A program made the position numbers and the translations under genes. The notes below the pieces were generated by a model that worked only from the letters and a program-made list of their open reading frames with translations, ran no database searches and was not told the DNA's origin. Below, one piece after another: positions 1-44,797 of a stretch of DNA of 46,523 nt (within the stretch, counting starts at the first letter, position 1; each line of letters opens with the position of its first letter). The stretch comes from a virus: positions 1 to 46,523 of the IMG/VR virus record IMGVR_UViG_3300035211_000089, one strand, 5' to 3'.

Positions 1-18
1 CGGCCTCTCGACCCTCAA

Positions 19-29: not shown

Positions 30-41
30 TCACGTGAAAAA
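26..41. promoter_or_regulatory. parS-like ParB binding site inside attP
   Basis: A perfect 12-bp palindrome, TTTCACGTGAAA (28-39), sits between the left arm site and the core. The 16-mer at 26-41 matches the bacterial chromosomal parS consensus TGTTTCACGTGAAACA at 14 of 16 positions; only the first base and the C near the right end differ. No ParA or ParB gene is encoded in the window, so any binding would be by host ParB. The match is seen; the function is inferred. Confidence 0.5.
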
Positions 42-73
42 CCGACTAAGTGCCTGTCCTGCAATCCCCCCTG

Positions 74-24881: not shown

Positions 24882-25554
24882 GAAGGACGATCTGATTCAG
24901 ATTATTCAGATGAAGGTCCAGGACCTGAGCTCTGAGTACATTCCGCACATCGAGACGGCGCTGAAGCTCGTCTGGGCCACGGTGGCGAGCTATTCCGACT
25001 GGTGGTTCATGCGATCGCCCGAGCCGCAGCCGATCAGCCTGACGGCCGGCGAGGACACCTACGTCGTCGACAACACGGATATCGGCAAGATGCTGCATAT
25101 CGCGAATGATGCGAACCGCAAGCTGTGGATCTATAAGGGGCGCCAGGCCTTCGACGCCTACCGGGAAGGAACCTCGGACAGCTCAACCGGGAACACTCAA
25201 GTCTTCACGGACTTGGGACTCAAGAGAAAGAAGCGGGTTATTCAGATATACCAGCCGCCCTCGGCTGTCTCGACGGTCTATCTGCATTATCAGCGCAAGG
25301 GAACGATCGACAATTTGAACCTCATGCCGGACGAATGGGCTTTTGTCCTGGTCCATGGTGTTATGTCGCTGATTGCGCCACCCCAGGAAGTCAACCAGGC
25401 CTTCTGGAAAGCTCTCTGCTACAAAGAGAGCAAGATGTTCGAGGGCTGGCTAATGGAGATGAAGCGCCTGGTCGAGCCGGCATCGGATGAGGAAGAAGAA
25501 CTGATCCTCGACAGCCTCACGAAAGACCGGCTCCAGGAGATCGATGACCTATGA
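24874..25554 (+). CDS. Head-tail connector (adaptor-like) protein
   Basis: A 226-residue protein without a signal peptide. LSLTAGEDTYVV-type strand, an early helical segment (IETALKLVWATVASYSDWWF) and a long C-terminal helix match small podoviral adaptor proteins that attach below the portal. Identification rests on pattern and position; the family is not certain. ATGA overlap with the next gene. Confidence 0.6.
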   Translation: MAEKDDLIQIIQMKVQDLSSEYIPHIETALKLVWATVASYSDWWFMRSPEPQPISLTAGEDTYVVDNTDIGKMLHIANDANRKLWIYKGRQAFDAYREGTSDSSTGNTQVFTDLGLKRKKRVIQIYQPPSAVSTVYLHYQRKGTIDNLNLMPDEWAFVLVHGVMSLIAPPQEVNQAFWKALCYKESKMFEGWLMEMKRLVEPASDEEEELILDSLTKDRLQEIDDL

Positions 25555-26219
25555 ACAGACTCCTATTCATTATCCTGTTGCCGCTGATCCTGCTTGGCGG
25601 CGCCAAGGCCGAATCACTCGGTCAGGTGATCCAATCGGTCTACAACCGCGGCGTCTACTTCGACCAGGACCGCTTCGATACCGTGGTCATTATGGACTTT
25701 GCCAATGACACACAGGAGCTCATCGCTACGATCGGGAAGACCAACCAGGCCGAGACAACGATCGTCCTGGGAGACGATCTGTCGTATGCCTTGCCGTCCG
25801 ATTTCTATTTAATTCACTCGGTCATTATCAACGCTGACCCAACGCTCGATTCGGATAGTCCCAGGCGGAGGCGGAAGTCCTTGAAGTACGTTCCGTATGA
25901 GGATTTTGGAAACAGCTACGCAGTCGGCTCCGATCGACCGGCCGATTACTCGATCTGGGCCGACAGCGTGAAGTTACACAAAGGATCGGACACCGGCGAA
26001 GACAGCCTGTTTGTAGGATATTTCCGGCATGCAACGGCTATGACCGACACCGCGGACGCCGTGGATCTGCCCCAGGCTTATATCGCGATGCTCAAGGATA
26101 TCGTTATTCAAATGTGCCTGAACCGGATCACCTTTCCGAACCAGAGCCCCAAAGAAGAAGCCTTAACTCTGACCGCGATGGTTACCGAGGCCTTGCTGGG
26201 CCGGAGGGGGGATCAGTGA
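25551..26219 (+). CDS. Connector-like protein with a Sec signal peptide
   Basis: A 222-residue protein. Residues 1-20 are a textbook Sec signal (basic NR, hydrophobic LLFIILLPLILLGG, then AKA cleavage site before ES). The mature part (YALPSDFYLIHSVI, VPYEDFGNSYAVGSDRPADY, FVGYFRHATAMTDTADAVDL) resembles podoviral adaptor/tail completion proteins. ATG 25551 is supported by AGGAG and the ATGA overlap, and the next ATG lies near residue 49. An exported connector protein is highly unusual. Confidence 0.7.
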   Translation: MNRLLFIILLPLILLGGAKAESLGQVIQSVYNRGVYFDQDRFDTVVIMDFANDTQELIATIGKTNQAETTIVLGDDLSYALPSDFYLIHSVIINADPTLDSDSPRRRRKSLKYVPYEDFGNSYAVGSDRPADYSIWADSVKLHKGSDTGEDSLFVGYFRHATAMTDTADAVDLPQAYIAMLKDIVIQMCLNRITFPNQSPKEEALTLTAMVTEALLGRRGDQ

Positions 26220-28666
26220 AGCTCGTCCTGACTACCCTGGTCATTACGGCAGTCGTCACCACGGCTGCAATACCATCGCTCGCGCAGGGAAGAACCCCGG
26301 GGAGTCTATACGACTTCTCGGGGGGAATGAATACCAGCTCGGACTGGTCACTGGTGGCCGACAACGAGGCGTATCAGTGCCGCAATATACTCCTGGACGT
26401 GGTGATCGGGGGAATGAAGCTCAGAAACGGCTTCCATGCCGTAACCGACAGCCTGGCTAATTACACACGCATCTGGTCACTCCACACGCACAAGTTCATC
26501 GATCGACAAGGCTTTCTGTTCCAGGTGGTCGAAAGGGACACGGTAACGCAGCTTTGCGATCTATTTGTGTCTGCACCTTTTGGACTGGATATAACCGATT
26601 CTCTCGGGTCCTATCTGTATCCGACCGGCGGGGGCTGGCTGAGCTGGCTCGACGCTCAGTATTATTTCAACGGCAAGAATCGATCGAAAGTGGTGGCCGG
26701 CGGTCCGGAAGACTTCACGCTCTACGACATGGTGCCCCTGGCACCGGGCCAGCCGGACGCCTTTCCGATAGCTGAATCGGGCAATCTCGAGGGTGAGTAC
26801 ATCTATGGAATCATCACCGAGATTCCATGCAGTACCGACGTTATGGCCTCGAGACCCGGTACCCTGTCTGAGCCGATTGTCGCCAAGGGAGAGAAGATCG
26901 GCATCCGGAATTTCTATCCGATCACTCCCGACAGTACCTGTTCCAATCCTGGGGCAACGATCTGGTTCTGGATTGTTCGAACGAAAGCCAACCGGGTAGA
27001 TTTCGACGACGACAGCCTCTGGATTGTCGACTCGATTCTCAGGCCGAACACCGAGACTGACAGCATCTTGTACGTCGACAATGTTGCTGACGGCTCTCTG
27101 GGCCCGCTCTGGGGCGAGATGCACGATCTCCGCGGCGACGGTTCCGGCGACAACCGGTGGGCCTACTATTACTGGTCGTATTATGCTCGTCACAATCAGG
27201 CCCATGCGCCGGGCAGCATGACATTTCTCGCCGGCGACACCATAATATCATCGCCGGGACACTATGTGCTTGGAACCGACACCGCTTTTGGAGAGTACGA
27301 CCACGAATTCAACCTCTATACCTGGACGCTCCTGAACGAAAAGACTGGAGCGCAGTCTGACACCGCGGCCGTGCTGGTCCTCTATCAGCCAGGCGCACCG
27401 GCCAACGACTCGACCTACGAAAACATCACCCTGGGCATCCCCGCGGCGCCTTCGGAAGACTTCGCCAGGATCATCTACCGAGCACATTATATCGCCGGTT
27501 ATTCTCCGGATGAATTTGAGGATCAGAACAACAAGTACCGGCGCTGGCAGCTCCAGACGTTCTACCCGCTCGACACGATACGAGCTGAGAATTGGGACAC
27601 CACGATCTTTGTGGACACGACACCGCCGGCGACGCTCGAGACGAACCGGTCAGGATACGAGAGGAAGATCCCGCCCGGCATTTTTAAGGGAGCTATTATC
27701 CATGAATCAAGAATGTTCGCCTGGAACGATTACCGGTTGTATGTCAGCGACGCCGACACCGCTGCGGCCTTCCCCTATTTCAATAACGTCGAATTTGACC
27801 TTGACGACGGCGATCGAATTATTTCATGCGCTTCCTTTGAGGGGTACGTTGTTGTTTACAAAACGAATTCCATCTGGCTGCTCTACACCAGCGACGGCAC
27901 CGTCTACGATCGCGTGAAAGCGAGCTTCGGGGTCGGCATGGTCTCGGCCAGGAGCTTCTCGAGGTACCACGGCGACAACATCTACCTGGGCCTCGATGGC
28001 ATCAATTTCGAATCGGACAGCCGGTACCGATCGCAGAAGGCCGATCGAACCTTCCTTTCCGACCCGATCAGGAACATTCTCTTGCGGGATCCGGAGAATA
28101 TGATTGATGCCGCCGGACTGGTCGTTGGTGACCGTTATTGGCTGTCATACCCAGGTAGTGACAGTTGCTGGACTTTCTTCTTCAAGACCGGCGCCTGGGG
28201 GCTGTCTGATTTCGACTTCTACCAGGGCATCTTGTACGATACGCTGGACCGGGACGAGTACACGACCTATCGCGACTTTTTGTTCATAAAGGATGATGAT
28301 GAGAGGATCTTCCATTTTTCGGAAACCGATTCGACGGACGACGGCGCCAGTTTTGTCGGCGTCTGGGAAAAGAGGCATGTCGCCCGTAACCCGTGGGAAC
28401 AGCAGACGATCAGCTCGATGGTTTTACAGCAAACCTCGAACGTGCCGGCTACCGATTCCGTCCTGGTTTATTTGACCGACGAGAACGGCGACAGCCTGGC
28501 GGTTGTGACGATCGACTCTCTCGATCAGATATACCGAAAAAAGCGAATCCTTTCGGCCGACAACGGGACTTTTCATCATCTCAACCTGAAGATAGAGGCC
28601 TTGAACAGGCCGGACATGGTGATAAACGCACTGGATCTTGATATCAGGCCAGCAGGGCTGGATTAG
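26216..28666 (+). CDS. Large tail protein with a signal peptide
   Basis: An 816-residue protein starting at GTG 26216 with GGAGGGGGG and a GTGA overlap. Residues 1-23 form a signal peptide (hydrophobic LTTLVITAVVTTAAI, cleavage after SLAQ). The mature start (YDFSGGMNTSSDWSLVADNE, then NILLDVVIGGMKLRNGF) is the pattern of phage tail or nozzle proteins that list DNA-ejection components. The rest is beta-rich and aromatic, fit for a tail hub or nozzle. No enzymatic motif seen. Confidence 0.72.
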   Translation: MKLVLTTLVITAVVTTAAIPSLAQGRTPGSLYDFSGGMNTSSDWSLVADNEAYQCRNILLDVVIGGMKLRNGFHAVTDSLANYTRIWSLHTHKFIDRQGFLFQVVERDTVTQLCDLFVSAPFGLDITDSLGSYLYPTGGGWLSWLDAQYYFNGKNRSKVVAGGPEDFTLYDMVPLAPGQPDAFPIAESGNLEGEYIYGIITEIPCSTDVMASRPGTLSEPIVAKGEKIGIRNFYPITPDSTCSNPGATIWFWIVRTKANRVDFDDDSLWIVDSILRPNTETDSILYVDNVADGSLGPLWGEMHDLRGDGSGDNRWAYYYWSYYARHNQAHAPGSMTFLAGDTIISSPGHYVLGTDTAFGEYDHEFNLYTWTLLNEKTGAQSDTAAVLVLYQPGAPANDSTYENITLGIPAAPSEDFARIIYRAHYIAGYSPDEFEDQNNKYRRWQLQTFYPLDTIRAENWDTTIFVDTTPPATLETNRSGYERKIPPGIFKGAIIHESRMFAWNDYRLYVSDADTAAAFPYFNNVEFDLDDGDRIISCASFEGYVVVYKTNSIWLLYTSDGTVYDRVKASFGVGMVSARSFSRYHGDNIYLGLDGINFESDSRYRSQKADRTFLSDPIRNILLRDPENMIDAAGLVVGDRYWLSYPGSDSCWTFFFKTGAWGLSDFDFYQGILYDTLDRDEYTTYRDFLFIKDDDERIFHFSETDSTDDGASFVGVWEKRHVARNPWEQQTISSMVLQQTSNVPATDSVLVYLTDENGDSLAVVTIDSLDQIYRKKRILSADNGTFHHLNLKIEALNRPDMVINALDLDIRPAGLD

Positions 28667-28681
28667 CAGGAGGATATAGTC

Positions 28682-29137
28682 ATGGCAGCTCCGGAAAAGA
28701 AAAAATCATGGTGGGAGAAGGCTGGAGATTTCGTCAGTAATCCGATCGTTTCAGGTGTCACTGGCGCTGTCGGCGGTGCTCTTTTCGGCGATCGCCAGAG
28801 AGATTGGGAGGAAACGAACCGGGCCGCCATGAAGACCTACGGTAAGGGGTTGCGGCGAGGCATCACCGAGGCTGACGTTATGCGAATGCTGCCGATCTTT
28901 CGGAAAGCCATGGCGCCATACATTCGTGGTGCGGCCGGCTCCGCCTCGGCCAAGTTCGGGTCTCGCTCCAGCTATGCACAGGGAGCAGCAATCAACGCGG
29001 CCAACCAGGCGATCAGCCCTTACGTGGCCAGCTCATTCCAGGACCGGCTGAGAAACAACCAGGCTAATCTGAGGCTGCTATTCTCAGAGAGTTCAAGGCA
29101 TGCCACCGAAAGAGGCGGCTCAGGGTTGGGGATCTAA
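28682..29137 (+). CDS. Small probable internal virion protein
   Basis: A 151-residue protein with a basic N-terminus, a Gly/Ala/Val segment (SNPIVSGVTGAVGGALFG) able to insert into a membrane, and an Ala/Ser/Arg-rich helical remainder. Such composition is common in ejection proteins of podoviruses. AGGAGG ribosome-binding site. Placed between tail protein and the giant ejected protein. Confidence 0.6.
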   Translation: MAAPEKKKSWWEKAGDFVSNPIVSGVTGAVGGALFGDRQRDWEETNRAAMKTYGKGLRRGITEADVMRMLPIFRKAMAPYIRGAAGSASAKFGSRSSYAQGAAINAANQAISPYVASSFQDRLRNNQANLRLLFSESSRHATERGGSGLGI

Positions 29138-29140
29138 ACC

Positions 29141-30208
29141 ATGGGACTGAATAAGCAGGACTTCGGTCGAATTCTGATCGGCATCTCGAAGGGGGCGGAC
29201 GAGCTCAGGCGCATCCGACGTGAAGACGAAAAGGAAGCCGAGCGGATAGCCCTCGAGGAAAAACGGTACCAGCGCAACCTGGCCGATCGGCGCGAGGATA
29301 TCCGCGATCAGCGCGACTTCCGGATGGACCTGCGCCGGATGGACCTCGAGGCCGAGCGAATCGAAAAAGAGAAGCAGCGGCGAGCGAATCTCAAGGCGGC
29401 CGATATCGAATCCCGCCGTCGAGCCGGGGTCGTAGACGCTGCTCGCCTGAAAGAGCAGCGCGAAAAGCTGGAAGACCCGAATCACCTGGCGTTACTTTAC
29501 TCACAGGGTCGCTATACACCGCAAACGGCCAAAGAACGGAGCTTGCTCGACGGAATCCTGCGAACCAAGACCGGCAACCAGGGCGGCGACGATAAAGGCA
29601 AGGTCATGACGGACGCCGAGTTCTACACCTTCTGGATGACCAAGAACGGACAATTCCCGCGGAACCAGCAGAAGGACTTCAAGAAGGCCCTCGAGGAATA
29701 CCGAAAGCATGTGGGAGAGCCGGCGACCGATCAATCAACAGGGCAGGGCAACGATGGCGCCGATATGTTCAAGGGAATAGGTACGGCCACGGAGTTTCCG
29801 GTTTCGGCCGGTGGCGCCCCCCTGACCGGCGGACAAGAAGCCTTCCAGGTGCCGCAGACCGGGAACGCTGGCCTGGACTATTACAATTATCAGGTCACTT
29901 CTCCGCGGCCTGGAATTCAGTCCCGGATCCGATCTCAGTCTCTGCCCCCGCAGCAGATGAGCGAATCGCAGATGTTGACGTCCGACGGTCGACCGATGTA
30001 TGACGGTCACGGTGGCCGTGATGGTGACGAGACTATCGAGATTGGACCACTGGTCGACCCGAACATTCTCACCGAGTCAGAGCAGGAGGCCGATAGCCTC
30101 TTGACCAGGTGGAGCTCGGGGCAACCGCTTTCTGATCAGGACATGGCCCTGCTGTTTCAGTTTCTGCAGGAGAATTACGATTGGCAACCACCCGACGTGA
30201 TGAATTAG
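29141..30208 (+). CDS. Probable ejected virion protein, coiled coil
   Basis: A 355-residue protein. Residues 20-110 are a very long charged coiled coil (RRIRREDEKEAERIALEEKR and on), then a disordered Gly/Gln/Pro-rich region and an acidic C-terminus. No enzymatic motif. Position before the polyvalent protein, with a 28-bp overlap, suggests both are packaged and ejected together. Confidence 0.62.
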   Translation: MGLNKQDFGRILIGISKGADELRRIRREDEKEAERIALEEKRYQRNLADRREDIRDQRDFRMDLRRMDLEAERIEKEKQRRANLKAADIESRRRAGVVDAARLKEQREKLEDPNHLALLYSQGRYTPQTAKERSLLDGILRTKTGNQGGDDKGKVMTDAEFYTFWMTKNGQFPRNQQKDFKKALEEYRKHVGEPATDQSTGQGNDGADMFKGIGTATEFPVSAGGAPLTGGQEAFQVPQTGNAGLDYYNYQVTSPRPGIQSRIRSQSLPPQQMSESQMLTSDGRPMYDGHGGRDGDETIEIGPLVDPNILTESEQEADSLLTRWSSGQPLSDQDMALLFQFLQENYDWQPPDVMN

Positions 30209-33200
30209 ACGCGAAGGCGAAGACCTTCATGCAGCAGGCAGAGACGAATCCGCCTCTGTTAGGGAAGCGGACTGCCCTGGACGCTAAGGTGATGGCATTC
30301 ATGTTTCACGCCGAAAAGGTCGCCAAACTCCAGAATGAGCAGACGATGGGCGAGCTGCAGGAAATGGCTGAAGCCGGCCAGGTGCCTCAGCCGAGCCAGG
30401 CGGACGCCACGGCGGTCAGGACGATGATTGAACAACCCGCTTTCGGTAATGTCGAGATGGATCCCGATCTGCTGAAGTTTACTGAAGAACCAGCCCCTGC
30501 TCAGAGTACCGGCACCGGCAGCCTGCTCCAAAAACTCCAGGCCCAGGGCGCATCGTATGAGGAAATCGATCGCATGATGCCGCAGTTGACGCGATCGCTC
30601 AAATCGCGCCGGCTCTCAGTCTCGGAACGTCTCTCCGATGTAGGGACCGGCCTGGCTGACTTCACCAAGAGCGCGGTCGACGAGCTGACACCCAATTTCG
30701 TGAAGGGTGCTTACAATCGCTCTCTGACAGGGGTCGCTCACGAAATAGCCTTTGGACAACCGGCTTTCGATCTATCCGGATGGGAGCCGAACGTCATCGA
30801 GGATATCGCGGCGACCGTCCTCTCTTTCATCATGCCCTTGGACGTGGCCACGCTGGGCGCCGGTTCGGCCATGGGCAAGGGTATGGTCAGAGTGGTTAAA
30901 TCGGGTCTGGTGCGACGCCTGGTCAATTACGGAGTGCGAAAAGAAGTGGCTGAGCGGGCGGTTGAAAAGGCAAGCGAGACGGCTCTCGGCCGGATGGTCT
31001 CCAGCGGAGCGACAACGGCGCAGACACTTGGAACGTATGAGGCCGCTTTCCCGGCTATCTCCGGCGAAGACTTGGAAGTGATCGGCAAGAGTTATGCTCG
31101 GGGTTCTGCTCTCGGCTTTATCCTGGGCGGGACCACGGGCTTGACGGCGCGATGGGGTAGGTCCATTCGAAGATTGTCAAATGGCGGCTATGTCTATCAG
31201 CAGTCGCTGCCCGGCAAGGCTGCTCAGGTCGGTGCTGAAATCGGGGCCTTTGCGGCCGGCGGGCCACAGGTTGAATCGATGTTCGAGGGTGAAGGCAACC
31301 TGGTGATGCCGACGCTCGAGGACCTGACGCATGCGACCGGCATCGTGATCGGCCTGAAACTGCAGGGTCTGGCTTCCAACTGGACGAAAAGCAAGGTCCA
31401 GGAGCATCTTTACAGCATCGTAGCTGAAAAGGGCAGGTCACTCGGAGAGGCTGTCCAGGAGTTGCTGCGAGACCCGAAAATCCTCGAGAGCATCCTGCAG
31501 AGGGAGCCGGAACAGGCGGCCGAGAATGTCGAGACGGCCAGGAAGAAGATTCTCGAGGGCGGTCAGCCGGAAATGCCGAAAGACCTTGATCCGGAGCTCA
31601 GGCAGATATGGGATCAGGCCCAGGCCGGCGATGAGCGGCTCGATCAGAGACTGCAGGAAGCCGGTTACTCCCCCGAAGATATATCGATCATGGAACCGGC
31701 GGAGAAGGCTTATTGGGCGTCCGGTGGTCAGATCGGATGGTTGAAGCAGGCGGAGCAGGGGGAGAGTTGGGCGAAAGAGCCGTGGGAGATGACGAGGCAG
31801 GAATATACTGAAGCCAACATGCCTTCACAGTCAATGGGGGGCGGGGTATCGGAGCACATTCTCGCAAGACATCATGCCATTGAAGTTCAAAAAGCTCTGG
31901 CGGAAGGGAAACGACCCACAAGTGATATAGTTCTACAGTCCGATGAGATCCTGGGCAAAGACTCTGAGTACCCAGCCGAAGTGCTCGCCGACTACCCCGA
32001 CCTCGCGAAGAAGCATCAGACCACAAAGACAGGAGCTGAAGATGCCAAAGGGTTACGAGAAGATGAGGGACAAGTTCCACCGCGAGGGTCGGACGTTGAA
32101 GGCGGCAAAGACACTGGCGGCAAAGATCTGGAACAGCAAACACCCGAGAAACCCGGTGACCAGAAAACACCGGAAGTAGTCAAGCCAAAGGCCGCCGAGA
32201 ATTTCCGCGATCTGCCCGAATCGAACGACGAATTCCTCGACATGAACATCGGCAAGTATCATGAGCGGTTCGATGAAGTCACCGGGGTCATGGAGAAGGC
32301 CCAGGCCGACGCCAAGGAGAAGGCTGAGCCGCTCTGGCAGGAGCTCGAGGACCTGAAGGGCAAGGGTCGCAAGAAAGCGATCGTCGAGCGCCGCAAAGAG
32401 CTCAAACAGCAGATTGCCGAAATCCACGAAGAAGCTCGCCAGCTCGAGCAGTTCCGGGAGGAACAATGGATTGCCGAGAACGAGCGGCTACTCGATGTTG
32501 TCCAGGAGATAGCGAAGAAGGACAAGAGACTTCCGAAAGACGTCGATATCGAGAGCTTGGCCATGGAGCTCGCCGAGATGGCCCTGGAGGACCGCTGGCG
32601 AGATGCTTACCGGACCGACCGGAAGACTTTCCGCGAGCTGTACGAGCAGATCGTCCAGGAGGAATTGGAGGAAGCGCCGGGCGAACCGCCGAAAGAAAAG
32701 GTCGATGTAAACTCCGAGGAATTCGAGCAGCAGATTGACCGGGAGATCGAGGAACTCGGAACCAGAGAGGTTGGACTGCCGGCCAACCTAAAACCGCTGA
32801 AAGACAAGAAGCGATACCTTCAGAAGTTGCTCGATGTCGAAGCCGCTGAGCTCGAGGATCAGGACCGGTCGCTCAAGTCATATCGCGAATACCGAAAACG
32901 AATCGCCAGCGAGGGCGACATAATCGGCGACGATGGCTACAAGCTGTCTGTGAATCTGGATCTGATAAAGAACCACATTACGTATCATGGTGGCGTCCTG
33001 GAGGCTATTGAGAAAGAGGTCCAACGAGTCCGCAAGGAGATCGAAACGGGCAAGAAACAACCCAGGACTAAACCCAAGACCAAAAAGCCGACAACTCGGA
33101 AACCCGAGAAGCCGACCGAACCGCCGAAGGACGTCGAAACGCCAGAGACAGCCACCGAAGACATCATCGAGGGCAAGCGCGAGTCGAAGCTGGGCATGAA

Positions 33201-36200: not shown

Positions 36201-37197
36201 GGAGAAGCTGTACGGCAAGGGCAGTGTTTCGGCAAGGATCATGGCAGCCAACGCTGCCGCCGACGTGACGATTAACTTCTCGCGCATGGGTAAATACGGC
36301 GCAGTCCTGAATCAGATCATTCCGTTTTTCAATGCCAACGTGCAGGGTATGGCCCGGTTCTACCGCATGGGCAGGCAGCATCCGGTGAGAGCTGCTGTCA
36401 AGGGAATCGGTATGCTGACTATACCGACCCTGGTGCTGTGGGATGAGCACAAGGACGAAAAGTGGTACCAGGACCTGCCCGATTGGGACAAGTACGGCTT
36501 CTGGCATTTCAACCTGGGCAAGACCAGCGACCAGGAGGACGTGATTCTCCGGCTGCCGCGGCCGTTCGAGTGGGGGGTCGGTTTCGCCTCGATGCCCGAG
36601 GCCGTGATGAATTACTGGTACAATAAGGAGCCGGATGCCTTCAAGTCCGCCATGAAAGAGATGTTCGGCCAGCTCCTGCCGCCGATCATGCCGACCACGG
36701 TGCGGACACCGGTCGAGGTCTGGGCCAACTACGATTTCTTCCGCGATCGGCCGATCGATCCGCATTGGGAAGTTGAGTACACCAAAGCCAGTCCCGACCT
36801 TCGATACAGCGAATGGACCACGGAGACGGCGAAGTTCATCGGCAAGACGTTCCGCATGTCACCGCGGAAGATCGAGCACACGATCGAGGGGTTGACCGGT
36901 GGCCTGGGTGAAGACGTTATCAGGTTTGCTGAGACAGGATACAAGCGGATTGAGGGCCAGCAGGATTTATTTGCATTCGAACACCCGGCCGATATTCCGG
37001 TCGGCGGACGACTGTTCAGTCGAACCAAGACAACCGAGGAGTCGGAGGCTCGCATTGAGGCCGAGTACAGGAGAACCAAAGGGGAAATCAATCGTCTCGA
37101 TCGCCTCGCAGAAGATGAAAACCGGCCTGAGTTGCGGGAGCGGGCCGACAAGCTGATCGAAGAATGGAACAAAAAGCATCCGGACTGGCCGATATGA
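30181..37197 (+). CDS. Giant polyvalent virion protein with metallopeptidase motif and LPD38-like domain
   Basis: A 2338-residue protein, probably packaged and injected with the DNA to protect it or act on the new host. It starts at TTG 30181 behind AGGAG. Early region: hydrophobic Gly/Ala segment at about 205-310 (ATVLSFIMPLDVATLGAGSA). Middle: long charged coiled coils (about 690-1010). Residues 1402-1406 are HEVAH, a gluzincin-type HExxH, followed by EGFAEY (1439-1444) supplying the third zinc ligand, so an active metallopeptidase is plausible. About 1880-2250 matches the LPD38-like domain of large polyvalent proteins (NLGFTLITNPIRDAM, IIPFFNANVQGMARFYRM). Polyvalent proteins are a known theme of phage-host conflict; this one's substrates are unknown. 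Confidence 0.85.
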   Translation: MATTRRDELDAKAKTFMQQAETNPPLLGKRTALDAKVMAFMFHAEKVAKLQNEQTMGELQEMAEAGQVPQPSQADATAVRTMIEQPAFGNVEMDPDLLKFTEEPAPAQSTGTGSLLQKLQAQGASYEEIDRMMPQLTRSLKSRRLSVSERLSDVGTGLADFTKSAVDELTPNFVKGAYNRSLTGVAHEIAFGQPAFDLSGWEPNVIEDIAATVLSFIMPLDVATLGAGSAMGKGMVRVVKSGLVRRLVNYGVRKEVAERAVEKASETALGRMVSSGATTAQTLGTYEAAFPAISGEDLEVIGKSYARGSALGFILGGTTGLTARWGRSIRRLSNGGYVYQQSLPGKAAQVGAEIGAFAAGGPQVESMFEGEGNLVMPTLEDLTHATGIVIGLKLQGLASNWTKSKVQEHLYSIVAEKGRSLGEAVQELLRDPKILESILQREPEQAAENVETARKKILEGGQPEMPKDLDPELRQIWDQAQAGDERLDQRLQEAGYSPEDISIMEPAEKAYWASGGQIGWLKQAEQGESWAKEPWEMTRQEYTEANMPSQSMGGGVSEHILARHHAIEVQKALAEGKRPTSDIVLQSDEILGKDSEYPAEVLADYPDLAKKHQTTKTGAEDAKGLREDEGQVPPRGSDVEGGKDTGGKDLEQQTPEKPGDQKTPEVVKPKAAENFRDLPESNDEFLDMNIGKYHERFDEVTGVMEKAQADAKEKAEPLWQELEDLKGKGRKKAIVERRKELKQQIAEIHEEARQLEQFREEQWIAENERLLDVVQEIAKKDKRLPKDVDIESLAMELAEMALEDRWRDAYRTDRKTFRELYEQIVQEELEEAPGEPPKEKVDVNSEEFEQQIDREIEELGTREVGLPANLKPLKDKKRYLQKLLDVEAAELEDQDRSLKSYREYRKRIASEGDIIGDDGYKLSVNLDLIKNHITYHGGVLEAIEKEVQRVRKEIETGKKQPRTKPKTKKPTTRKPEKPTEPPKDVETPETATEDIIEGKRESKLGMKEFKKRMVAELDKAIKKSSERPEGLTWLAERVLKLEKNYAAARNDARRETVREDLRIAKNALEEARKKHGVGFVNIHIPGDGDFTIENTRQSLEAVRKKVRGLPATIGPKPEKPPTEPGAGKTPHETKYVAILPDTEVEGGKYTSPVPASPRPLKKPPESVKFKKPGIPLWEMGGHFAVLKSAMKPPMKPRYDETRPPFDPKNGKGIIKDAIQAENLQPLEEVARLHLNDAPTMAVFYDGKRKHFFSADYIDYFHRHIKDFGLWSDKNPASAAVMVSGKKKVGILMPMRGGDVGDKLRIKLKESEGVEKKSATPKGADAMPIVRGHVDAYSEYLKKEMEGRISKRRIGPREITDYLSKAFSTPIRSGRTGRAAGLHYPDWNMTRVKDLRDLPVTSHEVAHRIDKMFDLRHTLFKGDSELADLDYNQNARRTKEGFAEYMRHWLTESMDVTKVAPKFTEKWNTWLKDHPEIKEKLETARDMIREWRKQGADNRVLSQIDIKNKGLPLPLKEKLTRKLRRAGYLGVDDLLVLEHAEREIRGMKPGDKLDPKKIPPQSSPTMIARDVAKKAYAKARQMVIDGTFDFSGKRTGISLRAVLEPVADHLNEFLVYGYAKRGIELHERGKNPGIDYGDAKYIVNKYESPDHPLRENFIKSLGELTGFADRVLQYVVDAGVLSPAEAKHMRELNQYYIPLKRVMDDGVWTGPRTGGRRLSNLGQPVKRLKGSGRAIVNPLESIVKQTAEMISIADKVRVGRALVELAEKHNFSGKWVFKVKTPQRRVRIDPVKAIKQMLDKGMIDIDDIPEMNTQGRMLDFYINQAQYMGHENIVSFWINGERKFYELDADLHGAMKGLDTYFAPPVVDVLFGKPARMVRLGATGVNLGFTLITNPIRDAMTLSLQTDYIKSYRLLDSLMRGFWTRTPWGTESQENMKRLWLRSGGDMANLLGLDRKTFQRTVNEALASKKTRKAMNILGHPIDALREVLSVSEAGPRLAEFEAAYKAGEKLYGKGSVSARIMAANAAADVTINFSRMGKYGAVLNQIIPFFNANVQGMARFYRMGRQHPVRAAVKGIGMLTIPTLVLWDEHKDEKWYQDLPDWDKYGFWHFNLGKTSDQEDVILRLPRPFEWGVGFASMPEAVMNYWYNKEPDAFKSAMKEMFGQLLPPIMPTTVRTPVEVWANYDFFRDRPIDPHWEVEYTKASPDLRYSEWTTETAKFIGKTFRMSPRKIEHTIEGLTGGLGEDVIRFAETGYKRIEGQQDLFAFEHPADIPVGGRLFSRTKTTEESEARIEAEYRRTKGEINRLDRLAEDENRPELRERADKLIEEWNKKHPDWPI
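32042..32179 (+). CDS. Nested 45-residue gene inside the polyvalent gene
   Basis: In a different frame of the giant gene lies a 45-residue basic protein (MPKGYEKMRDKFHREG, then KAAKTLAAKIWNSKHP) that looks like the small basic proteins with GYxxMRDxF...KAAKIWN found on their own in many tailed phages. It has AGGAG about 8 bp before its ATG. The host frame at this place encodes a disordered linker (GKDTGGKDLEQQTPEKPGD), which would tolerate a second code. Whether it is translated is inferred. Confidence 0.55.
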   Translation: MPKGYEKMRDKFHREGRTLKAAKTLAAKIWNSKHPRNPVTRKHRK

Positions 37198-37236
37198 TGT
37201 ACCACTTTGGCATTACATACCGAGAGGGGGTTACCG

Positions 37237-37491
37237 ATGGGACTTGCTAACGGCTCACGATTCGTCACAAAGGACCGCCTGATCTACATACTCCTGGCAA
37301 TAATCGCGTTCATGGCGAGCTTTACCATCTATGAGAAAGTGGCTGCCATTCAGCGAAATACGGACGATATCTCTGTGCTCAAGGCTCAATTTGCAGAGGT
37401 CCAGTCAGAGCTCAGTCACATAAGAGAGGCGGTCGATGAGATCAAATCGGCGGTAAAGGATGACAAGAAGAAGACTGAGGACGGAAGATAA
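37237..37491 (+). CDS. Membrane-anchored coiled-coil protein
   Basis: An 84-residue protein with one N-terminal membrane span (LIYILLAIIAFMASFTIYEK) and a C-terminal coiled coil (ISVLKAQFAEVQSELSHIRE), ending in a Lys-rich tail. The topology fits an inner-membrane spanin (Rz-like) or an anchor for ejection proteins; no outer-membrane partner gene is obvious nearby. ATG 37237 chosen by GAGAGGGGG. Confidence 0.6.
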   Translation: MGLANGSRFVTKDRLIYILLAIIAFMASFTIYEKVAAIQRNTDDISVLKAQFAEVQSELSHIREAVDEIKSAVKDDKKKTEDGR

Positions 37492-37574
37492 AATTACAGA
37501 CAGCGCGGCTTGAAGGGGCCGCTTATATTGCTGTTGAGTCAGCATCGGTGTCGTCGACTACAGGAGGCGACACA

Positions 37575-40112
37575 ATGTCAAGTAAAGCTACTCTCAGGCG
37601 AATTCTCTTCCTGGCGATCGCCCTGAGTATATTGGTCGGCCACAACTACATGCAGGCCGGCGTCACCTATCCCGGCACGAAAAAAGCCAATTCGGGCGTA
37701 CAGTCCCGACCGGTGGATATCTACAGGTGGATCAGCGCCGAGCTGACCGACACTTCGACCTGGACCTGGGATACTATTGCCGGCTACATAGAAGCGCTCG
37801 GCCTGGATATCGACACTACCGACATGCCGCCGATGCTGGCGGGGTATATCGGAGATCGGGCCGGAGGGAGTGACAGCGCGACGGTTTTGTCGTGGATGGG
37901 CGGTCATGTGAGCGATACAGCCGGGGCTGTCAGGACTGACCTAGCCGACACCGCGAGCGACCTTCGGACGGACCTCATGTCAAAAGGGGGAGGGACGTTC
38001 TCGGGTGATGTTACCTTCAGTGCAGCCGATCTGAACATGGGATCGAGCAACCGTCTGAAGTTCACCGATTCCTTGCGCTTTGACTGGGCCAATCACCCTG
38101 GCGTCTACGACTACTTCTTCAAGGTGTGGCAAGACACGATCGGGTTCGTAATATGGACCACCGGAAATGGTTATGACCCTGTTTTCAAATTTTACTCTAA
38201 CAAGATAGAAGGAACGGCGGTCTACGCCAGTACGCCGGAAATCACCGGCGACGTGAATTGGACCGGCAACGAAATCACGGACGCGTATCTTTCTGACGCC
38301 CTGACCTGCAACGAAGCCGACGATGTTGATACGGCCGGGACGAAGATCGCGGCGGCCCTGCTTGATCGACTGACCTCCCAGGGAGCCTACACTATGCCCG
38401 GAGTTGATGCGGCCGGGAGCTGGTACCATCTTGCCTACGATGCGTCTGGCGATACAGCTTTGTGGGTATGGCCGTATGCCTATCGCGGTTACGACGATTC
38501 CTGTGTTTATATCCGGCTACTCGACGACGTTACCAACGACTTCGAATTCAGGATCCCAAGCACCGGCGCCGTTCCCGGTTTTGCCACGGATGCCTGGTGG
38601 CTGCGCTCCAATCTGCCAATCTCAATCGCAAATGGCAACGGCCTGGCTCTGGGCTTTGAGATTGACATTCTCCGCGGTTCTGACTCCACCAAAAGCTGGG
38701 CGCTCAGAAACGACTCTATAATTGCGGAGAACGCTTCGACCAATTATATCGGAAATCTCTTGAAGGTCGAGACTGACTCCCTTTCAGCAGACTATATCGT
38801 AACAACCGGATCCGGTTCTGGTCAGGTCGTTATGGAGGGAGCTACCTCTGGATCGGGTGGTTTCGGAGTTCAGGACGTTGCCGGTTCCCCGGCTCTCCTG
38901 CTTCTACCTATCACGGACGGCAGCAACGGCGACCAGTTGACGACGGACGGTGCTGGTAATCTCTCATGGGCCGCGGCAGGCGGCGCGGGCGGCTCTCAAG
39001 ATACGGTGATGATCCACAACGACGCTGACACCGACTCGATCTTTGCGATCGACAACCGGATCAGCCTCAAGTGGAGTACGGGAATTGATGTCGCTATCGT
39101 GGGTGACACCGCGACGGTTTCGGTGGACAAGACGGAGATCTCGCTGAATTTCTCTGACCTGGCGGGATCCGTAGCTGACGGACAAATCGCCAATGATGCC
39201 GTGGACGGCGGGACCGACGGGGAGATTCAGGACGGCACAATCACCGCGGCCGATATGAGCTGGACCTCGACACCTGGATCGGGCGAGGACAACTACGTTG
39301 TAACCTACAACTACGCGGCCAACAACTTTACGGCCGTTGCCGGCGGGGGTGGTGGAACCTCGGATTCGATTGGATATGCTACTGATGCCGTAGGAACGGG
39401 AGTAGATGCCTGGCTCTATCCCGCTTTCTTCTTTGAGGGTGATGGTATCGGCTTCACGATCACGGGAGAGGATTCGCTGTCGATCTACCTGGACACCAAC
39501 GGTGTTGACATTCAGGCGGCCTTAACGAATCACGACGCCTTATATGACGACTTCTCGGAGTTGTCGGGAAGCCTCGACTCCAGCATGGTCACAGACGGCG
39601 ATCTGTCTATTGATGATATAGCCTGGCGTACCGAGTGGATGGAACTCACGGAGCTTTACGGTTGGTGTCGCGCCCTGGCCGATTCGATTACGGCGTATGA
39701 GGGCTATTGGGATGCCGATAATAGTCGAGCCTGGAAGGTCCTCGATGTGGCCGGGAATATCACCACTGGCGACCGCGATACTCTGGTCCTGGCTGTCACC
39801 GTTCCTTACGCCTGTACGATCGACAGCTTTATAGTCACGACCTTTGCAACCGGCGACTCCGGTATTGTTAAGTACGATTTCAGGGGGCCGGACGTTTCCA
39901 ACAGCGACGACGTTGTTCTCGACTCATCTTACCAGACGGCATCGGTCGAGTGGGGCACCGGGACCAGGGCTGACCCACTCGAAAGCAGGGTAGACCTGAC
40001 CAATAACATCACGGCCGCTGCCGGAGATAAGTACGGCCTCATGGTAATAACCGACTTCCGGGCAGACAACGACTCGACCGGATATACGATAAGACTGAGG
40101 TTGACAAAATGA
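37575..40112 (+). CDS. Large tail fibre-like protein with signal peptide
   Basis: An 845-residue protein. ATG 37575 is chosen by CAGGAGGCG upstream. The N-terminus has basic residues (SSKATLRR), a hydrophobic core (ILFLAIALSILVG) and a possible cleavage near MQAG. The mature part is a repetitive beta-rich chain full of Asp, Thr, Ser and Gly (DGQIANDAVDGGTDGEIQDG), typical of tail fibres. A GCTTATATTG motif lies in the leader at 37521-37530. A fibre with an export signal is unexpected, since phage fibres normally assemble in the cytoplasm. Confidence 0.72.
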   Translation: MSSKATLRRILFLAIALSILVGHNYMQAGVTYPGTKKANSGVQSRPVDIYRWISAELTDTSTWTWDTIAGYIEALGLDIDTTDMPPMLAGYIGDRAGGSDSATVLSWMGGHVSDTAGAVRTDLADTASDLRTDLMSKGGGTFSGDVTFSAADLNMGSSNRLKFTDSLRFDWANHPGVYDYFFKVWQDTIGFVIWTTGNGYDPVFKFYSNKIEGTAVYASTPEITGDVNWTGNEITDAYLSDALTCNEADDVDTAGTKIAAALLDRLTSQGAYTMPGVDAAGSWYHLAYDASGDTALWVWPYAYRGYDDSCVYIRLLDDVTNDFEFRIPSTGAVPGFATDAWWLRSNLPISIANGNGLALGFEIDILRGSDSTKSWALRNDSIIAENASTNYIGNLLKVETDSLSADYIVTTGSGSGQVVMEGATSGSGGFGVQDVAGSPALLLLPITDGSNGDQLTTDGAGNLSWAAAGGAGGSQDTVMIHNDADTDSIFAIDNRISLKWSTGIDVAIVGDTATVSVDKTEISLNFSDLAGSVADGQIANDAVDGGTDGEIQDGTITAADMSWTSTPGSGEDNYVVTYNYAANNFTAVAGGGGGTSDSIGYATDAVGTGVDAWLYPAFFFEGDGIGFTITGEDSLSIYLDTNGVDIQAALTNHDALYDDFSELSGSLDSSMVTDGDLSIDDIAWRTEWMELTELYGWCRALADSITAYEGYWDADNSRAWKVLDVAGNITTGDRDTLVLAVTVPYACTIDSFIVTTFATGDSGIVKYDFRGPDVSNSDDVVLDSSYQTASVEWGTGTRADPLESRVDLTNNITAAAGDKYGLMVITDFRADNDSTGYTIRLRLTK

Positions 40113-40744
40113 GGATTCTAACCTGTTTGCTCATCTTCTTGGTTCTGGCCGGATCGGTCGGAGCCGTCGAGGTCGGCAACGCCGACACCGCGACCGGGCG
40201 ACTCGATAAGTACATGGAAGATGTTATCGTCATCTCGGAGATTCTTGGCTCTGAGATTACGGAGAATCTGACCACCGACTCAGCCTATGTCTACTGTGAA
40301 GGGTTGGCGTCCGGCTTCTTCAAGATCGTCCTTTATGACGATAACTCCGGTGCTCCCGGCGATACCATCCTTACAACGTCCGAAATCGGATCAGACGGTA
40401 CGAGCCGCAAATGGTACGTCGAACCGATCACGGCGTCCCTGACCTCTGGAAACTCCTATTGGGTCGGGGTTGTCGGCAGCAAAGCCTCGAACGCATCCAA
40501 AACGACCAGGGGGGAGAGTTACGGTGAGTGGACGGATAATACAGGAACCTTTGAGGCCGTTCCTGCTGACGGCAGCGGCGCAGTCGCAAGCACCGACGAG
40601 GACACTTTGAAAGCTGTCTGCGTTTACATCGTTGCCCATACGGCATCCGGAGAGACGGTTTACATCGGCATTGAGAAGCAATCGGCTTCTGGAGCTAGAC
40701 TACTACAATCTGAAAGCGGAGCGTCAGCTATCCATGAACCATAA
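40109..40744 (+). CDS. Secreted beta-rich protein of the fibre cluster
   Basis: A 211-residue protein with a clear Sec signal (RILTCLLIFLVLAGSVG, cleaved at VGA before VE). The mature part is a beta-sandwich-like chain (SGFFKIVLYDDNSGAPGD, then SLTSGNSYWVGVVG). The ATG overlaps the fibre stop (ATGA). It could be a fibre tip or chaperone; no family recognised. Confidence 0.68.
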   Translation: MRILTCLLIFLVLAGSVGAVEVGNADTATGRLDKYMEDVIVISEILGSEITENLTTDSAYVYCEGLASGFFKIVLYDDNSGAPGDTILTTSEIGSDGTSRKWYVEPITASLTSGNSYWVGVVGSKASNASKTTRGESYGEWTDNTGTFEAVPADGSGAVASTDEDTLKAVCVYIVAHTASGETVYIGIEKQSASGARLLQSESGASAIHEP

Positions 40745-42602
40745 GCTACTAACAGTCATCCTCTGGCTGCTCCTGGTAGCCGCGGCTCAGGGAGCGCGGA
40801 ACCTCGTTACTCTTGACTCCGGAGACCTGCCTTATACGGCCAGCTCGAACGACAGCATTGTTATCAACGGGACTCACATTACGAGCGACGGCAGCGGGAT
40901 CTACGTTCCGGATTACGTCGACTCGGTTTATTTCGATTTCGGTACCGACACGCTTGAGTTCGGCGCCAACAGCGGAGACCAGGAGTACGGGATCCGGTTC
41001 AACCGGGCTACCGATTGCATTATCAACGGCGGCACGATCATGCGAAGCATCGGACCCGGCCCGACTGATGGCTCGGACAACCGCTGCCTCTATTTCACCA
41101 GCTATACCGCCAGGATTACTTTCAACAACACCGACCTGATTATCGACGGTCACGACGCTCACGCCGTGCTTATCTACGGGCCGGTGACCGACCTGGTGTT
41201 CAACGGCGGTACCTGGCGAAGCGATTCGCAGAGCTTCACCAGTCGGCACAACTACGACGGCGCGGTCGCCTGGTTTGGGACACCGTATTCCGGCGGGCCA
41301 AGCGGCCAGTACGACTATTCGCTTTACGGGGTTACAATCGAGAACGGCCCGGCCCAGGGGGCGATCTTTATCAATGCCAAGGTCAATGTCGATAGCTGTA
41401 ACTTCAGCACCGATCATATCAACATTGGAGTTCCGACTCAGAACGCGAACCAGTACCTGATCCTGCTTGCCAAGTGCAAGGCCGGGACGCGGATCGTCAA
41501 CAACACCCTGACCAGTGGCAGCAGCCGAGGCGGCAGCCGGGGTATAATGATCGAGAACTCCAACGGCTCGAGCGGCAGTCACATCCTGGTCAGAAACAAC
41601 ACATTGGACGTTCATAACGGACCGGACGCTGAAGCTGCGCCGGGATCTCTGCGGGCGATTCGACTGCGCTCAATCGACGGTAACACCGTTAGCTGGGTCG
41701 ACATCTTCTCTAACACCGTCTACACCACGGCCGACACCAACGACGCCACCACTCATATCGGCGAGGAAGCGATTGGCCTGGATATAAAGATGTTCTCGAG
41801 CACCAGCTCGCCGGCGCATCATATTCGAGTAGACTCCAACACCGTCTATGCCCGTTGTCTCTCTCAGGGAACGCTCTCGAAAGCGGCCTCGCCGATCACC
41901 TACGGAACGGTTGACACTTCGGGGCTGTCCTTCAGCCACAACGACCTTTACTTCTGCGACCACGGTTTGCACCTGTCGGACGAGGGCAACGGTATCGCCA
42001 GCCGTGATATGCTGTATGACTCCAACACCGTAACTGTAATGGACACCACGGTAGCGACCGGCAACGACAGCCTGGTCCTCGACAGCGATATTGAGACTTG
42101 GCATATTGGCGTGTCGGGCGGCGACCAGCTCCCAACCGCCACCGGCAACGTGGCTCTGGACAATACCTACACCAACGGCGCAGCGGCCAACGATATTACC
42201 TTCAACCCAGGGGCTCCCGGGCCTGGGGATCTCACCGTCAAGCACACCCTGACCGTTTTAGTAAAGGACAGCGACAGCCTGGCTATCCCTTCAGCCGATG
42301 TTTGGGCCATTAACAACTACGGCGATACGGTTCTCACGGGACAGACCGACGGCAACGGCAAAATCGCCGGCGCCGTGACCTGGTGGTATGACCATTCGAC
42401 CGGAACAGACTCGACCGCCTTTAACGACTTCACGTTGAAAACAAGGAAGCTGACCGACAGTACCTCGACAACCGAAACGATCAACGACTCCACGCCTGAC
42501 ATTATTCTCATACTCGCGGCCTCGGAGGGTGAAGCAACTCCACCCACCCCCGGCGTTTCTCAGAAAGTCATAGTTAGCGGAAAGACACGGGTGAAACGAT
42601 GA
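40734..42602 (+). CDS. Beta-helix spike/depolymerase-like protein with signal peptide
   Basis: A 622-residue protein. Signal peptide NHKLLTVILWLLLVAAAQG, cleavage before AR. The mature chain has many short turns of Asn/Asp-Gly-Ile-Val (TDCIINGGTIMRSIGPG, VNVDSCNFSTDHINIG), the pattern of a right-handed parallel beta-helix as in tailspikes and polysaccharide lyases. A C-terminal domain (about 510-620) looks like an Ig-like or carbohydrate-binding fold. No catalytic triad can be assigned by eye. It overlaps the previous gene by 11 bp. Confidence 0.72.
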   Translation: MNHKLLTVILWLLLVAAAQGARNLVTLDSGDLPYTASSNDSIVINGTHITSDGSGIYVPDYVDSVYFDFGTDTLEFGANSGDQEYGIRFNRATDCIINGGTIMRSIGPGPTDGSDNRCLYFTSYTARITFNNTDLIIDGHDAHAVLIYGPVTDLVFNGGTWRSDSQSFTSRHNYDGAVAWFGTPYSGGPSGQYDYSLYGVTIENGPAQGAIFINAKVNVDSCNFSTDHINIGVPTQNANQYLILLAKCKAGTRIVNNTLTSGSSRGGSRGIMIENSNGSSGSHILVRNNTLDVHNGPDAEAAPGSLRAIRLRSIDGNTVSWVDIFSNTVYTTADTNDATTHIGEEAIGLDIKMFSSTSSPAHHIRVDSNTVYARCLSQGTLSKAASPITYGTVDTSGLSFSHNDLYFCDHGLHLSDEGNGIASRDMLYDSNTVTVMDTTVATGNDSLVLDSDIETWHIGVSGGDQLPTATGNVALDNTYTNGAAANDITFNPGAPGPGDLTVKHTLTVLVKDSDSLAIPSADVWAINNYGDTVLTGQTDGNGKIAGAVTWWYDHSTGTDSTAFNDFTLKTRKLTDSTSTTETINDSTPDIILILAASEGEATPPTPGVSQKVIVSGKTRVKR

Positions 42603-43516
42603 AGCAAAACGGAATCGACGGTTGGAAAGAGTACCTCTTGGGAGTGGTTCTGCTGCTCCTGCTCCTGCTGGTTTTGCACCTTATGCTCTCCGATGACGCA
42701 GCCGGCGCAGTGGGTGGAACTGATTTAAGGATCTACGACGTTTTCGAGACGGCCGACAGCGTTCATCTGGAGCACTTTCGCGACGGCACGGCCAGCGATC
42801 ATTACTGGATCGACACCAACCAGGTCGATACGACGATACCGGAAGCCAACTTGGACACGGCGCTTCATATCGTCTATGTCCAGCTAAAGATCGACGCGGG
42901 CTCAGAATGGCTGACGAGCAAGGCCTATGTTTATCCGAACTTGACCGGTGGAGACATTGATAGCATACCGGTTGACATTCGATACATGGAAGCTGATTCG
43001 ACCATGTTGATTGTAACCGTCTCGAGCAGCTCAGACACGGCCCACTACGGAGCAAATTCCTCAGTGGATACGACGCTAACCGGGGTCCTCGACTCGCTCT
43101 ACACGATCACGGTTGTAAATCAGTACGACACCGACTGGCAGGGGGCTTTCGAGTTGATCGTCGACAACCGGCCCGGGGGGGACGGCACAATCACACCACC
43201 GGGATCAGTGGACCAGGCGACTGTCTTCGTCTATTACTACCGGAACGGAGAGCCACAAAAGGGCGCCAGGCTGTCGGCCCGGTTCGACCAGGTGGCCACG
43301 GATTCGGTCACCGGCACGACGATCGGACCTTTCACGGATTGGGAGAAGACAGACACGGCCGGCTACGCGGGGCTGGTTATTCCGAAGTCCTACATCTTCA
43401 ACGACTCATCCAACGCTCTCTACGACATCATTCTGCGATTCGCCGGTAAGACTGTCGGATCCTGGTACGATTACTTCGTGCCTGATCAGGACACAGTAAG
43501 GCTGGAGATGGAGTAG
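42599..43516 (+). CDS. Membrane-anchored fibre-cluster protein
   Basis: A 305-residue protein with an N-terminal membrane anchor (GVVLLLLLLLVLHLMLS) after a short charged start; it lacks a clear signal peptidase site, so it may remain anchored. The rest is beta-rich, with DRPGGDGTITPPG linking two domains; the last resembles a carboxypeptidase-regulatory or Ig-like fold (VFVYYYRNGEPQKGARLSAR). Same operon as the fibres (ATGA overlap). Confidence 0.66.
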   Translation: MKQNGIDGWKEYLLGVVLLLLLLLVLHLMLSDDAAGAVGGTDLRIYDVFETADSVHLEHFRDGTASDHYWIDTNQVDTTIPEANLDTALHIVYVQLKIDAGSEWLTSKAYVYPNLTGGDIDSIPVDIRYMEADSTMLIVTVSSSSDTAHYGANSSVDTTLTGVLDSLYTITVVNQYDTDWQGAFELIVDNRPGGDGTITPPGSVDQATVFVYYYRNGEPQKGARLSARFDQVATDSVTGTTIGPFTDWEKTDTAGYAGLVIPKSYIFNDSSNALYDIILRFAGKTVGSWYDYFVPDQDTVRLEME

Positions 43517-43521
43517 GATCC

Positions 43522-44034
43522 ATGTTCTTTGATGACTATCTGATACCGCCGAACTTGGCCGAGCTGGGCCTTCCCAGGCGAGGCGATCACATACAGGCGG
43601 ATCTGGAAACGATCTGGGAGACGCCCTACCCAGTCATTACCAGTTATCAGCGCACCATGGCGGCCATGGGGATTGTGCCGTTCGGTGGCGGTACCAGAGA
43701 GCGCCAGGGCGAGAGGCGAGAAGGCTATATCCTGTCAGGTTATCGCGATGCAATTCTCAACGGGAACCGAAATTCGCCACATCGGTACGCCTTCGCGGTT
43801 GATCTTCAGGCCAAACGAGACCGTCAGATCGAGATAGGCCGCAAGGCCCTGACTTGCGGCTTCAGTCGAGTAGGTCTCTATGCGCAACGTGGTTTTCTGC
43901 ATCTGGACGTGGCACCGTCGAATTGGATCGCCGTCTATCATAAGGTGCGGTTCTGGGTCCAGCTCGACGGCAAGTATCATTTCTTCAGGACCTATGAGGA
44001 AGCGGCTCGATTCGCTGCTGACGTTAAATTATAG
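43522..44034 (+). CDS. M15-family peptidase endolysin
   Basis: Cuts the peptide part of the host cell wall at lysis. In the 170-residue protein SGYR (72-75), H87 and D94 (HRYAFAVD, an H-x6-D pair) and H127 with D129 (FLHLDV) are the zinc-ligand signature of the M15 D-Ala-D-Ala peptidase family. No signal peptide, so it needs the holin encoded next to reach the wall. The C-terminus (YHFFRTYEEAARFAADV) may help bind the wall. Confidence 0.86.
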   Translation: MFFDDYLIPPNLAELGLPRRGDHIQADLETIWETPYPVITSYQRTMAAMGIVPFGGGTRERQGERREGYILSGYRDAILNGNRNSPHRYAFAVDLQAKRDRQIEIGRKALTCGFSRVGLYAQRGFLHLDVAPSNWIAVYHKVRFWVQLDGKYHFFRTYEEAARFAADVKL

Positions 44035-44045
44035 GAGGACAGAGT

Positions 44046-44276
44046 ATGGAGAAGAAAGAGCTGTGGGGCGTCGGGAACACGTTCATCCTGAGCGCTCTGG
44101 CCTTGGTGCTCACGTTTATCGGCGTCATGGCCGGGAAGTTCGAGCCCAGCATGTTTACCTGGGCGATGGGCGTGGCGCTCCCGTCGTATACGGCCAAATC
44201 TATCGGTCACGCGGTGAGCAACCGTAACAATCACAGCCAGCCGCCCACTGGCGCAAACGCGAGGATCAGACAATGA
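44046..44276 (+). CDS. Holin-like two-span membrane protein
   Basis: A 76-residue protein with two hydrophobic segments (FILSALALVLTFIGVMAG and MFTWAMGVALPSYTA) and a hydrophilic tail, typical of class II holins. It follows the endolysin by 11 bp behind AGGAGG. This gives a compact endolysin-holin cassette. Confidence 0.8.
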   Translation: MEKKELWGVGNTFILSALALVLTFIGVMAGKFEPSMFTWAMGVALPSYTAKSIGHAVSNRNNHSQPPTGANARIRQ

Positions 44277-44797
44277 GGTTAGTTACAGTCACATTGTGCG
44301 TGCTGCTCTTGGCTGCGGCCGCCTTCGGCCAAGAAGCGCCACAGAAGGCTCCACTGTCAGGCGTGGTCGCGGGATCCGCGGTCGCGGCCAACGAGTTTTC
44401 GAATTGGGCGGGCGCGGTCCAGGTCGGCATTATCACGCCGATCGATCAGAGCAAAGGCGTTTCGGCCCGAACCCTCTACACCAAGGCTTCGTTCGGCCAC
44501 GACGAGTACATTGAATCGCTTCGTCTCACCGGGCTGTTGAGCTGGCATATCGGCAAAGGATGGGAATTTTATGTTCCGCTGGGCGCCGATTTCTATACCG
44601 GTGGAGCAGAAGGCGGGGTAGATGCTTTCGGTGGGCTCGGCACGATGGTCAGATTGCACACGGCGCACAACCAAGACTACCTGGTGCCGTTTTCGATAGA
44701 CGTGTTCGCAGAAGCCGAATTCTCAGATGTCGACGAGGCCAAAGACAATCTTGCCCACCTGACGTTCGGGCTCATTTTCGCCAAGCCGGTTAAGTGA
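44273..44797 (+). CDS. Small outer-membrane barrel-like protein
   Basis: A 174-residue protein with a signal peptide (TVTLCVLLLAAAAFG, cleavage before QEAP) and alternating hydrophobic strands rich in aromatics and Gly (WEFYVPLGADFYTGGAEG, PFSIDVFAEAEFSDV), ending in a strand (LTFGLIFAKPVK). It resembles a small beta-barrel of the outer membrane. The ATG overlaps the holin stop (ATGA). Roles to consider are the outer-membrane step of lysis, or receptor masking; position supports lysis. Confidence 0.62.
   Translation: MRLVTVTLCVLLLAAAAFGQEAPQKAPLSGVVAGSAVAANEFSNWAGAVQVGIITPIDQSKGVSARTLYTKASFGHDEYIESLRLTGLLSWHIGKGWEFYVPLGADFYTGGAEGGVDAFGGLGTMVRLHTAHNQDYLVPFSIDVFAEAEFSDVDEAKDNLAHLTFGLIFAKPVK

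Follow-up and report, generated by a model that had tools for sequence, protein, structure and literature searches.

Tailed phages are taken to build both head and tail in the cytoplasm. Virion proteins with Sec signals are familiar from the filamentous phages, whose coat proteins carry them and whose particles are assembled at the membrane. Unlike the phage described here, however, filamentous phages are non-tailed, are extruded, and lack a capsid-portal-tail architecture. Spanins, SAR endolysins, lipoproteins and Lom-type barrels are further signal-bearing phage proteins, none of them structural. The Spackle protein of T4 (gp61.3) has a cleaved 22-residue signal peptide and is exported to the periplasm (PMC7650644). 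It resembles the neck proteins considered below in being a phage protein with a signal peptide, but it is a single immunity/lysozyme-inhibitor protein and not a component of the virion neck. No report of signal peptides on phage neck proteins was found in the open-licence literature searched.

The closest described particles are those of SU10 (PDB 7z47) and GP4 (8jov), with the T7-P22 type of neck formed by portal, adaptor and nozzle. The window, by which we mean the whole stretch of 46,523 nucleotides analysed here (IMG/VR record IMGVR_UViG_3300035211_000089), is a complete, circularly assembled phage genome, as its terminal repeat and the record type indicate ( Table 1 ). It has the same capsid, portal, adaptor and nozzle families in the same gene order, but differs in containing two adaptor genes and in the presence of signal peptides on the second adaptor and the nozzle, both of which are free of signals in the known SU10-like members checked. 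Pfam and PHROGs also identified RecE/RecT-type genes, TerL (13589), the M15-type endolysin and the LPD38 ejection protein. Capsid, portal and adaptor match PF17236, PF23899 and PF24175, respectively; the nozzle is matched at 5e-17 by a profile of relatives built without the window protein, and the nozzle-family profile matches the GP4 portal-tail chain 8jov_A at 4.5e-13. Judged by its genes alone, this is an SU10-like podophage by all family tests, bar the export signals on its tail proteins. Structural proteins without export signals are found in all homologues examined, although this is not a formal criterion of the family.

Table 1. Features of the window, with the basis of each assignment. 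A vertical break in a signal sequence, given as a slash, marks the predicted cleavage site.
Feature	Position	Strand	Basis or remark
Exact direct terminal repeat, 127 bp	1..127 and 46397-46523	.	Repeat comparison
Portal protein, no signal peptide	18683..20584	+	Pfam SU10_portal 2.1e-15; signal absent in both relatives too
Probable scaffold protein, no signal peptide	21209..22198	+	Precedes capsid gene; homologues in both relatives
Major capsid protein, no signal peptide	22241..23449	+	Pfam SU10_MCP 2.4e-30; signal absent in window, G001 and L169
Head-tail adaptor 1, no signal peptide	24874..25554	+	AlphaFold model matches solved podophage adaptors
Head-tail adaptor 2, Sec preprotein	25551..26219	+	Pfam SU10_adaptor 9.5e-10, from residue 24
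Adaptor 2 signal peptide, MNRLLFIILLPLILLGGAKA/E	25551..25610	+	Detector
Nozzle / tail-hub protein, Sec preprotein	26216..28666	+	PHROG virion structural protein; profile matches
Nozzle signal peptide, MKLVLTTLVITAVVTTAAIPSLA/Q	26216..26284	+	Detector
Two probable internal virion/ejection proteins, no signal	28682..30208 (28682-29137, 29141-30208)	+	Position; weak G001 homologues
Giant internal virion/ejection protein, LPD38 domain, no signal	30181..37197	+	Pfam LPD38 3.4e-33
Fibre-like protein with signal peptide (37575-37658, ...HNYMQA/G)	37575..40112	+	Detector
Fibre-associated domain protein with signal peptide (40109-40165, ...SVGA/V)	40109..40744	+	Detector
Beta-helix-like spike protein with signal peptide (40734-40793, ...AAQG/A)	40734..42602	+	Function from sequence character only
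Fibre-type protein, hydrophobic N-terminus (anchor or signal)	42599..43516	+	Sequence character; C-terminal domain matches a G001 protein
Probable lysis genes: M15-type endolysin without signal (43522-44034), holin-like small membrane protein (44046-44276)	43522..44276	+	
Exported small protein with signal peptide	44273..44797	+	Signal-bearing homologue in G001 (43%)

Signal peptides were called with a rule-based detector that scores a basic n-region, a hydrophobic h-region and small residues at −3/−1. It picked up all 12 of the known E. coli signal peptides used as a check and flagged one of 177 non-gene ORFs of the window; its background among all genes in related loci is about 3%. An earlier note on this sequence had proposed Sec signal peptides on the genes at 25551, 26216, 37575, 40109, 40734 and 44273, and all six are present at those starts as Sec/SPase I-type signals. 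The note was also right that the starts of 25551 (ATGA) and 26216 (GTGA) are fixed by overlap with the preceding stop codon. Among genes of at least 100 aa downstream of the capsid gene, signals occur in 6 of 15 in the window versus 13 of 792 in 146 related loci (binomial P about 9e-8). The tail-side gene set itself was picked post hoc, and a Fisher test on it is descriptive only. Within the window, signals are found on the second adaptor, the nozzle and the fibres, and on none of the portal, capsid, scaffold, first adaptor and ejection proteins. The only signal-bearing gene off the tail side is the envelope-type gene 44273.

The placement of 25551 and 26216 in the head-tail block agrees with Pfam, profile and structure-model evidence, which identifies them as adaptor and nozzle homologues. 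A Spackle-like immunity protein, small, non-virion and binding tail lysozyme, is ruled out for both genes by this homology. The model of adaptor 2 matches the solved adaptors of SU10, KHP30, P1, GP4, crAss001 and N4 (fold match to the SU10 tail 7z47, 6.9e-06), and its residues 1–17 are of low confidence and unstructured. In both adaptor 2 and the nozzle, the known domain begins directly after the predicted cleavage site. Only one nozzle gene is found in the window genome, with no signal-less copy, so an exported nozzle would have to serve the virion. Its next possible start is codon 38, which lies inside the conserved DFSGGM motif; therefore no signal-less nozzle can arise from a later start.

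Two distant relatives share the signals. The first, G001 (IMGVR_UViG_3300031539_000104, locus L212), was found by pair alignment and has a capsid protein 62% identical to that of the window; the second, L169 (QZIW01000022.1, capsid 50% identical), was found by a genome-contig scan. IMG/VR single-protein scans with the window nozzle and capsid protein, a portal pair scan, and tblastn of the window adaptor and nozzle against known phages gave no matches. The three phages have a common gene order of capsid, small protein (poorly resolved in L169), glycosyltransferase-like protein, adaptor 1, adaptor 2 and nozzle. The signals should recur in the same genes of related genomes if the earlier note is correct, and they do: G001 and L169 have signal peptides on adaptor 2 and nozzle, whereas their adaptor 1, portal and capsid proteins are signal-free. 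The adaptor 1 homologue of L169 matches SU10_adaptor at 4.4e-9, above the cut-off, and adaptor 1 lacks a signal in all three phages. It is probably a head-side ring, and gene order suggests contact with the portal. In G001, the fibre-region gene 23605 and the 44273 homologue are also signal-bearing, while head, ejection and early genes are without signals; the DNRLRE-domain protein 22893 appears signal-like by eye and was missed by the detector.

The signals and the mature proteins of these phages have diverged differently. The mature parts of adaptor 2 and nozzle are 37–47% identical across the three phages, and tblastn matches to both relatives start at residue 16–22 of the window proteins, which is the cleavage region. 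Against shuffled sequence, the signal regions align at P 0.05–0.23 in four of five pairs and at 0.002 in one nozzle pair. The n-region, h-region and −3/−1 residues of a Sec/SPase I signal are nonetheless present in all three phages, kept while the sequence diverges; the nozzle cleavage boundary A/Q is aligned in all of them, and in adaptor 2 the residue at the corresponding position is small in each case. Signals that are intact but barely alignable, on conserved mature parts, argue for selection on the export signal rather than for chance or a wrong start codon. In addition, window and G001 share four of six cysteines in the nozzle and none or one in portal, capsid and adaptors, which would be weakly consistent with an oxidising compartment.

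Outside this clade, 57 adaptor and 95 nozzle homologues from phage loci and a further 16 adaptors and 20 nozzles from bacterial genomes contain no credible signal (73 and 115 in total, some loci being near-duplicates and the counts thus not all independent). In these proteins the domain starts with the first residue or close to it. Four low-scoring detector matches (adaptor L157; nozzles L098, L081 and L023; scores 1.7–3.5) have no hydrophobic core by eye. The L222 nozzle, a close homologue, begins MPADQSVGLRYNPIYDFSGGM, without a signal. The mature nozzle of the window has the N-terminus QGRTPGSLYDFSGG, compared with MSNRQYITFMDFSGG for the L027 nozzle and MPADQSVGLRYNPIYDFSGG for that of L222; cleavage would therefore restore the ordinary length. 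These nozzle offsets were judged from HMM matches and close pairs, as MAFFT misplaced the N-terminus at large length differences. Homologues that share the mature part but lack the signal, which the earlier note had named as the finding that would speak against it, thus exist outside the clade but not inside it (G001, L169). Since they lie only outside, the signal is best regarded as an added, clade-specific trait, and the proposal is not refuted.

Several loci deserve separate mention. In another lineage, the major capsid protein of L032:9827-11131 (IMGVR_UViG_3300005518_000020, G003) has an N-terminal extension of roughly 57 residues that contains two hydrophobic stretches; its gene offers no alternative start. 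Signal peptides are present on fibre genes 12999, 18313 and 19768 of this phage. A model in which heads stay inside would not fit there, should the capsid extension serve for export. Locus L004 (MW495066.1, “Microcystis phage MaAM05”) has many bacterial housekeeping genes, among them aspS, lepA, proS, ftsH and kimA, around its phage neck block, and the record resembles a prophage-containing bacterial contig. Two tandem adaptor-fold genes (24874-26219 in the window) are unusual, most podophages having one; in Manatee Spring phage ctxSa4, two adaptor matches lie within a single reading frame. The glycosyltransferase-like gene (phrog_1574; 23925-24881) between the capsid and adaptor genes is kept in both relatives.

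The remaining signal-bearing genes lie in the fibre and lysis region. The earlier note had called 42599 membrane-anchored; the long hydrophobic N-terminus is there, but an anchor and a signal peptide both fit, and the C-terminal domain shares 50% identity with the end of a G001 protein that carries a signal. Homologues of 40109 in L049 and L051 are without a signal. The view of the signal-bearing set as virion proteins holds for the adaptor, the nozzle and the fibre- and spike-like proteins but not for 44273, which is probably an envelope protein with an outer-membrane-type barrel rather than a virion part, and would belong with the non-structural exported phage proteins. Single signal-bearing fibre-like proteins are found in otherwise ordinary SU10-like phages (L157:16866-18272, L160:12270-13976 and L150:12552-13517), and signals confined to fibres may occur more widely. 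Window positions 45001-45249 encode a small protein with a lipobox-like N-terminus and a C-terminal hydrophobic stretch, overlapping a TPR-repeat gene (45222-46421).

The observation behind the earlier note is thus confirmed, and its suggested interpretation, export of part of the particle with assembly at the envelope, is partly supported. Its alternative suggestion, a coat of these proteins on the host surface, is possible. From sequence, there is strong support for the view that virion parts carry real export signals. Assembly at the envelope would be the best fit, because only tail-side parts are signal-bearing and there is a single nozzle gene. We consider the chances somewhat better than even that a small SU10-like clade makes its tail-side half as Sec preproteins and its head-side half in the cytoplasm, with the tail built outside and joined at lysis. 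Adaptor 2, nozzle and fibre/receptor-binding proteins would be exported via Sec and their signal peptides cleaved, while portal, capsid, scaffold, adaptor 1 and ejection proteins would remain cytoplasmic. The tail half would be built beyond the cytoplasmic membrane, either in the periplasm or in the wall space. Heads already filled with DNA, possibly closed by adaptor 1, would attach to it at lysis, after the holin has opened the membrane. Lacking a signal, the endolysin would likewise have to await the holin. Heads and tails of other phages can join spontaneously in vitro. On the other hand, we know of no mechanism by which heads could meet exported tails before lysis, and two-compartment assembly of this kind, with heads filled in the cytoplasm, tails built outside and the halves joining across the opened membrane, is given slightly less than an even chance. 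If true, the rule of cytoplasmic assembly for tailed phages would be broken by a clade exporting its tail half via Sec; head and tail would be joined at lysis, and assembly of the phage would be tied to the host export machinery.

Other explanations can be offered for the same signals. Were the signals inefficient, a cytoplasmic fraction could build ordinary virions while the exported fraction served a second role, such as receptor blocking or cell shielding. Tails could then meet heads without a new assembly route, but we regard this as unlikely: the h-region of adaptor 2 is strongly hydrophobic (mean 3.44), of a type usually exported during translation; cytoplasmic copies would retain a greasy N-terminal extension absent in all homologues; and the nozzle has no signal-less start. 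It is also possible, though distinctly improbable, that the segments are uncleaved anchors, tethering neck and fibre proteins to the inner membrane for tail building or entering the membrane of the next host at DNA delivery. Gene 42599 does resemble an anchor, and in the separate phage L032/G003 even the capsid protein has an N-terminus that is hydrophobic. However, the conserved cleavage sites of nozzle and adaptor 2 argue otherwise, it is the mature domains without the extensions that match the length of signal-less homologues, and a basic/hydrophobic/AxA N-terminus puts the mature part outside.

A role outside the virion, with the exported adaptor and nozzle acting as decoys or surface proteins that stop superinfection, has a precedent in T4 Spackle, a phage-exported, signal-bearing protein that acts against incoming particles (PMC7650644). 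The lack of a second, signal-less nozzle gene in the window and the working-neck gene order in all three phages make this very doubtful. An artefact of chance hydrophobic N-termini or wrong start codons is scarcely credible, given the start overlaps, the enrichment downstream of the capsid gene, the rarity of detector hits among non-gene ORFs and the conservation of the signals in three divergent phages.

The preferred reading, export of the tail half, leaves a choice of compartment, periplasm or wall space, and the hosts of the window phage and L169 may differ. The barrel resemblance of 44273 is weak (OmpA, E=1.2), hinting at a two-membrane host. Omp85 was not detected in the MAG holding L169, so this host may have just one membrane, and exported parts could then be lost. 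In the CRISPR array of this MAG, an Ammonifex MAG, spacer 80 (L226, G002:C5) agrees with the scaffold gene of L169 in 28 of 36 positions, compared with a best of 23/34 in a shuffled-spacer control. The differences are mostly at third codon positions, the spacer encoding KKLYAGKYETVE against KKLYAGKYETPE, which suggests that the lineage of this Ammonifex MAG is infected by phages of the present group.
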